Of a stretch of 64,000 nt of DNA, positions 17,127 through 38,142 are shown piece after piece. Every line of letters begins with the position of its first letter. Position 1 is the first letter of the stretch. Both the position numbers and the translations under genes were made by a program. The notes below the pieces were generated by a model, which saw nothing but the letters and a program-made list of their open reading frames with translations, searched no databases and was not told the DNA's origin. Source of the DNA: Gelatoporia subvermispora B. Taxonomy: Eukaryota; Basidiomycota; Agaricomycetes; Polyporales; Gelatoporiaceae. The stretch lies in NCBI GenBank assembly GCA_000320605.2, contig KB445802.1:124001-188000 (forward strand). The letters run 5' to 3'.

Positions 17127-18775
17127 ATGGCAGACTCAGGCTCCAGCGCAGCGGCGGCCATTGTTGCCAGCATTCTACAAAGGTTCGTTTTGTCTAGGTG
17201 TGCTAATTCTGCTCGCTGACATCTTTTCTAGCAACTTGGAATCCTACTGTATGCTCGTGGCAGTCAGTGAGTACACCACATTGTGTCACCAGATAGCTCA
17301 ACGATACTGAAGTGTAATGCAATTTCAGCATGTGTATTCTATGAACATGTGACTACATTGGATGACGAAGTCGAATTTGTCTGGGGAAATGGCATCAATT
17401 GCCCTGCGCTACTCTTTTATCTCAACAGATGGCTCATATTATTATGGGCAATTTCTGTCCTCTTGACACTCGCTCCAGCAAATACGCTCCCTGTAAGCAT
17501 CCTTCAATAAGATGATACGGCAGATCTCACGGTTCATTGCAGGTGTCTGTACTCATTTCACTTGTGCTGGTGCAATGGCTGAGTCATTACGTTTAACAGC
17601 TGTATTATACAGAATCTCGCTGGGGAGACAATTGAAATCATGTTGTACTTTGTTTGGGCAGGTACTAAAACCCCATTATCCTGACTGGTCGAGACTTACA
17701 GTTTTTTATAGCTTTTTCGGCTACGCGTGTGCATGTTCTCACTAGAGGATCTTTGTTCTGGCCCATTGCCGTCTGTGTGCTGAGTCTAGTACCAGTGGTG
17801 ACCAACATTGTGCGCGTTTCGGTTAAAAGTGACGTTGCGCAATTACTAATTTCTGGACGGTAGTATACATCGATAGTATCCATGACTTACCAAATGGTGG
17901 ACATCCCTCTTTATGGTACTACCTGTGTGATAACAGAGGTGCTCTCGTCCAATGCTATATTCAGGTAATTCCGTGTCACTATTGTCCCAAATTTGGCACG
18001 ACTAATGCTCTCTCTAGGTGTACGTCTTTCCCTCTCTAGACGGCCCGAGTCGGAGAGTTGACATAATTCCCAAGTCACAATTGCAACACGGATGTGTGTG
18101 ATTACTGCCGACCTAATTGTCATAGGAATTACATGGCGGGCGTCTGGCGGGACCCTTATCGAGTTTCGCAAAGTAGGGATACCTAGACCTGTTCTACGTA
18201 CTCTGCTCAGAGATGGTGCGCTCCTATCCCTATAAAAGTCACAATACTTACGATGTGCATGCGAAACGCAGGTTCCTTGTACTTCGTGTAAGTGATACAA
18301 CCTCTCAGGATCTGGGGACCGCATCCGACTTATGACATGCAGCATTCTTCTAATCCTGAATGTTTGGCAGATAATTGGCAATGCCACAGGTGTCCGTTGC
18401 CTTTGATAACATGTCACTATGAGAAATGGCTGACACATATTTGCACTAGTTCTTCATCTTCACGGTTGGCGTGTTTGGTACCCCGTACGTGAGCTTCACG
18501 CTACTTGTCTCCTGTCTCTGACGTGAACACTGTGTAGGGTGTGCTCCATCATCATTTCCCGCTTCCTCTTTGGTCTTCGCCGCGCTGCGGTCGATCGCGA
18601 GATGGAGAGTTCGTTATCCGCCTCTCAATGCAGTAGCAAGTTCTCTCACATCATATTCAACCGGGACGACATGTCTGGAGATGTCCTGACCCCTCTAGAT
18701 CGTCCCCAAGACACTGCCTCCGTACGTAGTTGTCATCCTCCACATGTGTCGCAGCTGAATGACACTTATGGCTAG
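17127..18775 (+). CDS. DUF6533 multi-pass membrane protein, paralog 1
   Basis: The start MADSGSSAAAAIVASIL is followed, after short introns, by the DUF6533 signature VFYEHVTTLDDEVEFVWG and LLFYLNRWLILLWAISVLL. Later membrane segments include IEIMLYFVWAAFSATRV, LFWPIAVCVLSLVPVVTN and ITADLIVIGITW. The cytosolic end starts SIIISRFLFGLRRAAVDRE. This is the seven-helix plan of a large, uncharacterised basidiomycete family, perhaps receptor-like. About 11 introns occur. Two exons must be only 2 nt long to keep frame: GT at 17543-17544 (introns 17493-17542 and 17545-17599) and GT at 18018-18019 (introns 17965-18017 and 18020-18074). A 16-nt exon encodes SLYFV. The model is otherwise intact. Two paralogs lie at 26815 and 36496, on the same strand. 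Confidence 0.7.
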
Positions 18776-26814: not shown

Positions 26815-28627
26815 ATGGCATACGTCGGCCCTGAAGTTGCGGTCGAAATTGTGACCTATCTCAAGAGCGAGTGAGTAGTTATCTTCGTTTTCCGACGGTT
26901 GTCCTGAATCATGTATCAGCTGGATAGACGAACACTGCCAACTGGCAGGCATTGGTATATTCCTGATTTGTCATGACGACTGAGCACTAACTTTGTGTGC
27001 TTACCCAGCACTCGTACTTTACGATCATATCATCACCATCCCCGGGGAGGCTCGATTCATATGGGGACAGAAGCTCACCAACGCAATCATTTTATTCTAC
27101 TTGAATCGATGGTTTACATTCCTCTGGGTAGTCTCTTTTACCCTTGGCTTCGTGGGCTTTGAAAATATCCCGGTAAGTCTCAACCTGCGCCTCATGCTCT
27201 TCAGCTCACGTATCTCTGTATAGGGGTTCGTTTGAATCTCTACTTCTGCATTTGATATTATGCCCATAATTTTCCTGTAGCTGCATGGCGCAAAATCTTC
27301 TGTCACAAGCAATGACGATAGTCTTGTATTTGATCTGGGCCGGTATGTCATTTCCATGTGTCGCATCCTGATTTCTCAGTATGTACTCTGGCAGCGTTCT
27401 CCGGGATTCGTGTTTTCGGTGTCAGTGGCGGCAATCGGTGGCCCTCGGCATTTGTATTTGCACTCAGCCTGGTACCAATAGCAACAAACCTTGTGCGGAC
27501 TCATGCTCTCGTGCCTATCAGAGTGCTGATTCAGTTGACAGTACGGTAATGTCGCAGAAGTAACGTACAACTTTGCTGAGCTCCCGGTCGTCGGTCTTCA
27601 ATGCCTTCTCGGAAACAAACTCACACAGGGAACAGCGCTGAAGTAAGTTTTTGTCTCACTTCTCGAACAAATTGAACCCAGCTATTCCTCTGTTATGTGA
27701 CATTAGATGTACGTTTTCAAGGTTGTGGGAATAATCCGAACGCACTAAAGCCTCATCTTCAGTTGCTATTGCTACTCGGGTATGCGTTATTGCTGCGGAC
27801 GTCGTGGTTTTGACAATCACTTGGATGAAGACCTACGCGCTGAAGAGGGAGGCAGATAGAGTCGGAATAGCGACACCCCTAGCCACTATGATGCTTCGAG
27901 ATGGTACGCGTACTTCGCTCTGTTCAGTTGTTCATTACTCAGAGCGGCCACTGCCTAGGCACCATCTACTTCTTGTGAGCATATATATCATTATGAACGT
28001 CCTTTGTCGATAAATACGGGACAATAGGGCTCTCTTAGCGCTCAATATTATCCAGATCGTCGGCTGGACTACAAATGTGGGTGTAGAATGTCCTAGTTAT
28101 TGTAACTCTCACTGATAGATCATATCGTGTAGTCGTTCATATATGCCGCTACTGCTTTCGAGACGCCGTTCGTACACTTACCAGTAGTCTTCAACCATAA
28201 GTCCCACTGATATCACCTCAGGTTGTCTTCGATGATCGTTTCCCGCTTCCTCATGGATCTCCGCCGCGCCGCCTACGCCGGTACTGGCGAACCCTCAGGT
28301 GAAACCCACCCGTCGTTCGTTCGCTCAGCCAATGCACAACAGGACAGGCCCCATACCCCCGTGCTCAGGTTCGCCCCAGTCATCAACGACATGGGCGGAA
28401 ATCTTAGCTTCATATCAGACGATGATCTGGTTGATGGAGACGAGCCTTCTGGGGGATGTATTCTCGCTGATGAAGAGGCCCAAGCAATATCTGACCATGC
28501 GCTCGTCGTGGACACGAGTGGTGCTGGGAATACTTGTGATGAAGGCAAACCCGAAGTCTCGGAGGGAAACGCCGAAATAGTGGAGACTCCACGCTCACAA
28601 TACGCAGCGTGCGGAGGCTCGTGTTAA
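26815..28627 (+). CDS. DUF6533 multi-pass membrane protein, paralog 2 (intact)
   Basis: The start MAYVGPEVAVEIVTYLKS leads to LVLYDHIITIPGEARFIWG and IILFYLNRWFTFLWVVSF, the family signature. Further helices are CMAQNLLSQAMTIVLYLIWA, SAFVFALSLVPIATNL, CVIAADVVVLTITW and LALNIIQIVGWTTN. They are followed by SSMIVSRFLMDLRRAA and a long acidic tail. Frame requires two 2-nt exons. The first is GG at 27224-27225 (introns 27173-27223 and 27226-27280). The second is AT at 27707-27708 (introns 27643-27706 and 27709-27762). A 16-nt exon encodes TIYFL. The tail keeps VLRFAPVINDMGGNLSFISD, a motif shared with paralog 3. No lesion was found. The function is unknown; a surface sensor or receptor is the usual guess for this topology. 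Confidence 0.75.
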
Positions 28628-36495: not shown

Positions 36496-38142
36496 ATGTC
36501 TTATCATGGCCCTGACGTGTCTGCCGACTCTGTCGATTATCTCCAGAGCTCGTGAGTTTGGTCTCCTTGAGTTGCGTATCTTCCTGACTTGGCCAATCCA
36601 CAGTTACGTTAGCTTATGCTGTGCTGTAGCTGGAAGCGGTACGTTGACGATCTCCTCTCCAACACCTCTGACTGACCAATGCAACGTTCAGCTGTGGTTC
36701 TCTATGATCATCTGCTAACGTTCAACGAAGAAACACGCCTCATTTGGGGGGAAAGAATAACCAGTGTGAATGCCTTGTTCTACTTCAACCGCTTGTTCAC
36801 ATTTTCTTGGGCCGTGGCAAACCTGTTGGATTTTGTTACCGCATCGACCACTCAGGTAGCATTCCCTCTTCTACCAATGTGGACCAGGATCTGATTTCGA
36901 TGTTGTAGGAGTTGGTTTCCTCGGACCCCATCTACATACTTACTAATCCTCTTACCTAGCTGCATGTCAATAACCTTGCTGCAACAGGCCCGTGTTCGTG
37001 TTGTTCGTGATATGGGCCGGTAGGCCATTGTATTTCATGAGCCTGTTTATCTCAAATTGATCATTCACCAGCATTCTCCGCAATCCGTGTCTATGCGATC
37101 GGCGGCGGCATCCTGTCGTTATCGTTACTCGTTGCCGCATTGGACTTGATGCCTGTAGCAACCAATATCGTATGTTATCTGTCCTCCTTTCTTGCGTTAT
37201 TTCTGAGCTTTTCCGCAGTACGCAAATGCCATCGAGAACACATATGAGATCACTACGTTCCCCATACTCGGTATGCAATGCCTGATAGGCGATCGTGTGT
37301 CTGAGAGCCTCAATACTAAGTGAGCCTTCAATCAACTCCGCATTATTGAATCACTCACTCACCACGCCGCTCAAATAGATGTCAGTGATGCTCTGAGTCT
37401 GCTGTATTTGGGCTCATGAACTACGCCCTCCTGTTATAGTGGCAATTGTTACACGAACCTGTGTCATCACATCCGACGTCCTTGTCCTAGCAACTACCTG
37501 GTTCAGAACATACACTTTGAAAAGACAATTCGATCGATGCGGGGTCAGCACCCCTCTCGTCTCGATGCTTCTACGCGATGGTGGGCGATGAATTCTCTCT
37601 TCGTGATTACACCTTGACTTCGCTCTCCAGGCACGGCATATTTTCTGTGAGCACCACCCATGACCTGAAGTCGTCTATAAGGCTGAGCCATGCACGGGCC
37701 AGGCTTGCGTTGATTTTGAATATAATCAATATTGTGGGATGGACCACGGATGTAAGAAACGCATGTGACTCGGTTTTTACCGAGCCTAATCGAGACTGCT
37801 CACAGACGTTCGTATACGCTGTCGCCGATTTCACCACTCCGTGAGCTGCACTTGTAACTATTTCGACGACGGCCAGTGACATGTTTCAGTATTTCCTCGA
37901 TCATCATCACCCGTTTCTTGTTGAACTTGCGCCGAGCGGCAGCTGATAGGGGTAGTCCGGGTGTCACCCAGGACTCCTCCACAGGAACGTCGTCGAACCT
38001 GTCTCAAGATGCGTCCCAGGCTCTAACGATACGGTTTGCGTCCTTTGTTGGCGACATGGGCGGAGAGCTGGCGGTCTGGCCGGATGACACAGGTTACATC
38101 GAAGCCCTGAGCGACAGAGTGCCCGAGCATGAAGCAAAGTAA
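36496..38142 (+). CDS. DUF6533 multi-pass membrane protein, paralog 3 (likely frameshifted)
   Basis: MSYHGPDVSADSVDYLQSS precedes VVLYDHLLTFNEETRLIWGE, LFYFNRLFTFSWAVANLL, GGGILSLSLLVAALDLMPV, CVITSDVLVLATTW, LALILNIINIVGWTTD and SSIIITRFLLNLRRAA. The tail has TIRFASFVGDMGGELAVWPD. Frame needs 2-nt exons GA at 36909-36910 (introns 36856-36908 and 36911-36959) and AT at 37379-37380 (introns 37320-37378 and 37381-37439), as in the two paralogs. The exon that follows the first microexon (36960-37019) is 2 nt shorter than in both paralogs. The frame changes between LLQQA and VFVLFVIWA, in the third helix. I found no alternative splice that rescues it. It is either a recent pseudogene or carries a sequencing error. 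Confidence 0.65.

Follow-up and report, generated by a model that had tools for sequence, protein, structure and literature searches.

Two-nucleotide exons between short introns in a large DUF6533 gene family of Gelatoporia subvermispora

We analyzed a window, i.e., the whole stretch of DNA considered here, of 64,000 nucleotides (nt) from the wood-rotting fungus Gelatoporia subvermispora B (Polyporales), located at G000:C12:124001-188000 of the 37.7-Mb assembly. Three genes on its + strand (genes 1, 2 and 3) are of the DUF6533 type, and the subject of this work is two sites in them, A and B, at which an exon of only 2 nt lies between two short introns. Gene 1 (17127..18775) has 12 introns and a predicted product of 332 amino acids (aa), with an uncertain 3' end. 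Gene 2 (26815..28627) also has 12 introns and encodes a predicted protein of 388 aa that matches DUF6533 (PF20151) at 52.6 bits, against a curated Pfam cut-off of 24.1. Gene 3 (36496..38142) is possibly degraded; its 327 aa are open only if A2, the second intron at site A, ends at 36987.

At site B, spliced alignment placed a phase 2 intron (B1), the 2-nt exon and a phase 1 intron (B2) in all three genes, and the 2-nt exons can also be read directly in the sequence. In gene 1, B1 (17965..18017, 53 nt) precedes the exon GT (18018..18019) and B2 (18020..18074, 55 nt, with an AAG acceptor); in gene 2, B1 (27643..27706, 64 nt) precedes AT (27707..27708) and B2 (27709..27762, 54 nt); in gene 3, B1 (37320..37378, 59 nt) precedes AT (37379..37380) and B2 (37381..37439, 59 nt). 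The original prediction, made from the letters of the window, had placed AG-NN-GT units at these positions, and its coordinates, flanks and intron lengths proved exact. It had also held these to be the only units that fit, and each gene does have a single AG-N2-GT between the intron ends (from ~75 nt before to 60 nt after the unit, which covers both introns). The joined codons are AGG TTC in gene 1, AAA TTT in gene 2 and AAA TTG in gene 3, giving the expected Arg-Phe, Lys-Phe and Lys-Leu. Across B, the predicted mRNA of gene 2 consists of the upstream exon end CTGAA, the two bases AT and TTGCTATTGC. Skipping B in this gene would bring a stop after 204 of 388 residues, so inclusion of B is needed for the full protein; with retention of B1 (stop at 173) or B2 (181) also truncating it, the full protein depends on correct splicing in two steps. 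Skipping A would leave 140 residues.

Spliced alignment identified the exon at site A as GT in gene 1 (17543..17544) and as GG in gene 2 (27224..27225), where it contributes a Gly directly before a near-invariant Cys. For gene 3, the aligner made no call, and the candidate GA (36909..36910) was recognized by eye. The exon that follows A in gene 3 (36960-37019) is 60 nt long, while 87 of the 89 such exons called in the family have 62 nt, and the frame therefore breaks at the usual acceptor after A. An in-frame alternative acceptor at 36987 costs 9 residues, including the near-invariant Cys. Gene 3 is thus possibly a degraded copy with an intact site B, and the idea that all three genes carry two 2-nt exons stands for B throughout and for A in genes 1 and 2, but calls for caution at A in gene 3.

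The structure extends far beyond the window. Scored DUF6533 matches in the genome number at least 150, with 255 candidates. A genome search with the helix downstream of B (AIATR type) gave 150 scored matches at E ≤10, only four of which do not fall below 0.01. Of these loci, 111 were read, 20 of them with short flanks; the long-flank set of 91 comprises 90 loci and gene 1, the latter taken from the window. In an alignment-free count over the 91 long-flank genes, 80 have AG-N2-GTRNG at a distance of 25-130 nt before the AIATR helix, compared to a mean of 3.65 genes in 20 plain base shuffles; other spacings between AG and GTRNG (k = 0-30) are found in 2-18 genes. The recurrence of AG-N2-GT is far beyond chance. 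A spliced protein-to-DNA aligner (introns of 42-130 nt, GT/GC-AG, any phase, junction residues masked) was then applied to the 111 loci. At site B it called an exon in 99 loci, 2 nt long in every one and never of another length. At site A there were 84 calls among the 104 loci with an alignment reaching the site; 83 of these exons have 2 nt, and the remaining one, with 10 nt, is a probable artefact. Gene 3 falls among the 20 loci with no call. In total, 182 exons of 2 nt were called, and masking the unit lowered the alignment score in every case (median ~20 half-bits). These genes are well diverged, with a median pairwise identity of 40% (minimum 22%) among 87 predicted proteins. The 2-nt exon is thus real, old and family-wide. 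Having been described for three paralogs, the unit is in fact standard across the family rather than peculiar to them, and the suggestion of an old and selected structure is borne out as to age, both by the divergence of the paralogs and by traces in proteins of other Polyporales, but not as to special selection.

The latter point follows from gene architecture. Exon lengths are near-constant, with 35, 2, 62, 98, 2, 141, 16 and 49 nt in most genes, while loop exons vary. Each of the four introns beside a 2-nt exon is found in 85-96% of genes, and each of the other eight in 90-99%; as the flanking introns are kept no better than the others, general intron stability explains their persistence with no special selection. 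It is the frame and the codons that are maintained. Even with both residues masked during alignment, 54 of 99 genes have Arg or Lys at codon 173, and 81 of the 99 have Leu or Phe at codon 174. Where B is preceded by AA or AG, its first base is mostly a purine (49 of 57 genes), and where T follows, its second base is mostly a pyrimidine (81 of 87); P values for these preferences are only indicative, since related sequences are not independent. Judging by the letters, the two bases of B look translated.

The splice signals around B are ordinary. B1 and B2 have median lengths of 53 and 52 nt, donor position 5 is G in 96-97%, and a candidate CTNAY branch site is found in 61-70% (32-33% in the reversed control), the same as in other introns; donor, acceptor and branch-site signals all match those of the family's other introns. 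The most frequent second donor at B is GTATGT or GTACGT. The A2 donor is somewhat weaker, with G at position 5 in 72%. Several variants were seen at these sites. At B, ~62 nt upstream of the helix exon, one locus (L008) has a GC donor after its 2-nt exon (AG-AT-GCAAGT). At A, the exon itself is AG in 61 of 84 called loci, making a tandem AG-AG before the GT donor; the second AG, if used, would leave an exon of zero length and shift the frame. Another small exon, flanked by introns i9 and i10, measures 16 nt in 86 of 88 genes; at the edge of this exon, the public model P0004 includes 8 additional residues.

Exact intron losses have left the two bases inside larger exons. In L019, B1 was lost exactly, and the exon before B2 is 103 nt long (101+2), with the two bases kept in frame. 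L021 also lost B1 exactly; its exon before B2 has 100 nt (103-3, one codon less), and the bases are again kept. These two losses are separate events, since the genes share 38% identity and the two nearest relatives of each retain the exon. L050 lost A1 exactly, its exon before A2 being 166 nt (164+2), followed by a normal 47-nt intron. All three clear losses remove the first intron of the pair. No exact loss of a second intron was called among the loci: joins that skip A2 gave 76, 70, 91 and 61 nt, not 64 nt, and no join skipped B2. If intron loss proceeds via partly spliced RNA, this pattern hints at removal of the first intron first, although three cases are few.

Public proteins provide a further line of evidence. 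A public G. subvermispora B protein, CERSUDRAFT_97167, is identical to gene 2 over the first 85 residues, after which 111 residues are missing, beginning at site A and reaching past B (column 85 to 197). CERSUDRAFT_119661 (P0023), in contrast, is identical to the prediction for locus L078 over 271 residues. On the L078 DNA no canonical single intron yields the P0023 residues at A or B, and there is exactly one canonical two-intron solution per site, with AG at A and AT at B. For a view across species, 90 annotated public proteins (five from Gelatoporia) and 13 labelled lgn or jgi, 103 in all, were aligned with the family profile. Among the annotated proteins, 41 of 86 scorable ones are disrupted at B (25 gaps, 16 insertions), and 38 of 81 with Gelatoporia set aside. 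Control introns are disrupted far less often (i2, 0/62; i5, 8/83; i9, 7/82; i10, 7/82; i12, 8/79; Fisher P <= 8e-8 for B vs. each); i6 and i11, being in variable loops (26/85 and 40/79 disrupted), were left out of this control set. Proteins from short contigs (965-1707 nt; lgn/jgi), most of which we infer to be continuous reading frames from spliced transcripts, show no disruption at B in 10 scorable cases (Fisher P 0.004 vs. annotated), while P0057 and P0016 carry stretches resembling a retained intron.

The Postia placenta genome model P0090 jumps over B from IPSFGT to TYRIKQ, whereas P0022, from a 1691-nt contig, has 38 residues across this jump, B included, and differs from P0090 at 5 positions outside gaps. 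In two strains of Lentinus tigrinus the same gene occurs with no mismatch, one model being contiguous (LALR-FTIASR) and the other having 19 residues inserted at the Arg-Phe junction. Missed 2-nt exons offer a reason for such broken public models, as automatic gene finders often miss an exon that must be spliced exactly to keep the frame, and DUF6533 studies that rest on automatic models may inherit these errors. Inserted peptides in P0011, P0002 and P0019 had been considered as proof of AG-NN-GT in other species and were dropped, since back-translation without the DNA is ambiguous. Three public models named as SAM domain proteins (P0088, P0090 and P0093, from Daedalea, Postia and Wolfiporia) have the C-terminal half of a DUF6533 protein at their end, lack the stretch around B and are likely annotation fusions.

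Reading frame, splice signals, recurrence in the family, exact intron losses and a public protein all support the exon. Very probably, then, each gene has a real and normally constitutive 2-nt exon at B, and most also have one at A, between two ordinary short introns. The two introns of ~53 nt would be removed successively by intron definition. Were the first to go first, the two bases would thereby be joined to the upstream exon, and the second donor would then be used. The two bases would complete codon 173, mostly Lys/Arg, and begin codon 174, mostly Leu/Phe, where helix 5 of a predicted seven-helix membrane protein makes its first turns. The exon probably persists because intron positions are rarely lost in this family and because skipping, or retention of either intron, would truncate the protein.

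Several points weigh against this reading. We infer constitutive inclusion and the order of splicing from DNA and protein sequences. The aligner profile was made from the same loci, in two rounds of refinement, and 39 of the 150 matches lie outside the survey. In 10 of the 99 loci called at B, the score gain over the best exon-free structure is <5 half-bits. Twelve of the 111 loci have no call at B; by eye, L038, L056, L096 and L102 of these have the unit with weaker sites, and L019 and L021 are the two exact losses of B1, but L065, L074, L084, L090, L095 and L110 are broken or different, L074 being in frame with one 115-nt intron. On the L078 DNA, non-canonical single excisions give the same residues, in three ways at A and in two at B. 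The contig recorded for CERSUDRAFT_119661 has 365,068 bases and that of L078, C27, has 353,769; the model may represent another copy or assembly version. Some gaps at B may be natural, since the annotated set includes partial records, several model pairs of one gene and distant homologs. At site A, 32 of 79 annotated proteins are disrupted, as are 3 of 7 scorable short-contig proteins (insertions); because the loop before A varies in length, this comparison lends no support to A, which is the weaker case from proteins alone.

Could the unit be a chance or structural motif within one intron of ~110-120 nt, with the frame kept by another donor or acceptor? Such a state is reachable, to judge by L074 and by L021 and L073, where site A scored best as one intron of 97-109 nt, and the non-canonical excisions of L078 would also be compatible with it. 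As an account of the family, we find it very unlikely. When single introns in genes 1-3 were enumerated (GT/GC-AG, 40 nt or more), the 16 stop-free solutions (2, 4 and 10, respectively) all cut the conserved loop or added intron peptide, and even the best of them, from GTGTGT at 37295 in gene 3, costs 9 residues. Nor would it account for an exact 2-nt spacing common to 80 of 91 genes, or for the lack of a canonical single intron that reconciles L078 with the public protein. An AG-NN-GT relic persists in L074 and L021 despite the in-frame single intron; site B of L074 and site A of L021 and L073 could represent evolutionary escape from the 2-nt exon, or damage. The unit also has the geometry of a stwintron or recursive-splicing site, an acceptor adjoining a donor between two short introns, which would reset splicing in one long intron and leave zero bases in the mRNA. 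Stwintrons are known in Hypoxylaceae fungi (PMC9024468, PMC12403724) and resemble our case in having paired short introns removed in two steps; here, though, two bases stay. Keeping none of them would put the frame off by two, B skipping in genes 1 and 2 leads to early stops, and the paralogs that lost B1 retain the two bases in an exon, all of which makes this extremely improbable.

Regulation would mean that inclusion vs. skipping at A or B switches a receptor-like protein between full-length and truncated forms. The predicted truncations in gene 2 (204, 140, 173 or 181 of 388 residues upon skipping or retention) would suit such a switch, and a glucose-dependent microexon switch has been described for Xlr2 of Trichoderma virens (PMC11121469). 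We nevertheless consider regulation unlikely, given that the B splice sites are as strong as others in the family (only the A2 donor is somewhat weaker), that the introns around the 2-nt exons are kept no better than others, and that B is included in 10 of 10 scorable short-contig proteins. To the notion that this group of the family is decaying and that the frame mismatch is pseudogene damage we attach next to no probability. Nine of 87 predicted proteins do contain a stop, the exon after A in gene 3 has 60 rather than 62 nt, and several loci are broken at B; but 78 of 87 are stop-free, exon lengths are near-constant, the unit is shared by diverged genes and L078 agrees throughout with a public model, so that open frames and codon constraint contradict decay. 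The constitutive 2-nt exon remains the reading that we adopt.

Exons of this kind are already known. In Fusarium, CYP621A has a 1-nt exon that was confirmed by SRA reads and is missed by public models (Nelson and Syed 2026, PMC12940212). As in our family, this is a sub-codon exon of a fungal gene that was deduced from a phase mismatch, with a constant AG-N-GT in orthologs and an intronless relative. CYP621A concerns 1 nt in one gene of Fusarium species, however, while here there are 2 nt, two sites and about a hundred paralogs in one genome, predicted from DNA and protein sequences. In land plants, APC11 and VPS55 contain 1-nt microexons (Yu et al. 2022, PMC8831610; Guo and Liu 2015, PMC4674806) that are likewise long kept, frame-essential, absent from annotations and accompanied by introns lost in some relatives; these are single plant genes, verified by RNA sequencing and reverse transcription PCR, as opposed to a large fungal gene family. 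Exons of 2-5 nt in Arabidopsis, Drosophila and human (cited in PMC12940212) belong to the same size class as ours but, going by that citation, are separate cases and not the standard structure of a family. P450 genes of Phanerochaete chrysosporium, also a white-rot basidiomycete with small introns (45-55 bp), have microexons of 2-10 aa, with a shortest exon of 6 bp vs. 2 nt here (PMC1184071). Snowball/SNB1 of Coprinopsis cinerea shares DUF6533 and seven predicted transmembrane helices with the family, and the main text of its description (PMC10949477) does not use the word microexon. Among the open-licence papers listed by our literature searches, none reported fungal 2-nt exons or DUF6533 genes with microexons, and there we did not see such exons, two to a gene, described as the normal architecture of a large family.

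While the 1-2 nt exons that turned up in the literature are isolated cases in single genes, the 182 found here in 111 loci of one genome make a natural set for asking how the spliceosome deals with exons that are too short for it to recognise. A bolder proposal, which we regard as unlikely, is that a Polyporales seven-helix family (more than a hundred loci here) was built on a plan with two 2-nt exons, each arising when an intron settled two bases upstream of an existing donor, and that obligatory stepwise splicing may serve as a checkpoint silencing receptors via incomplete splicing. If true, settlement two bases upstream would indicate a common route of intron gain.

Some observations concern the wider family. 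Relatives in viral contigs were searched for and none was found. In the Foldseek ranking other receptors come first, with the VIA list spanning only Foldseek's best 1000 chains. Ten further DUF6533 matches are clustered upstream of the window, at G000:C12:13240-109695; they lie outside the helix-5 search results and perhaps constitute another subfamily.
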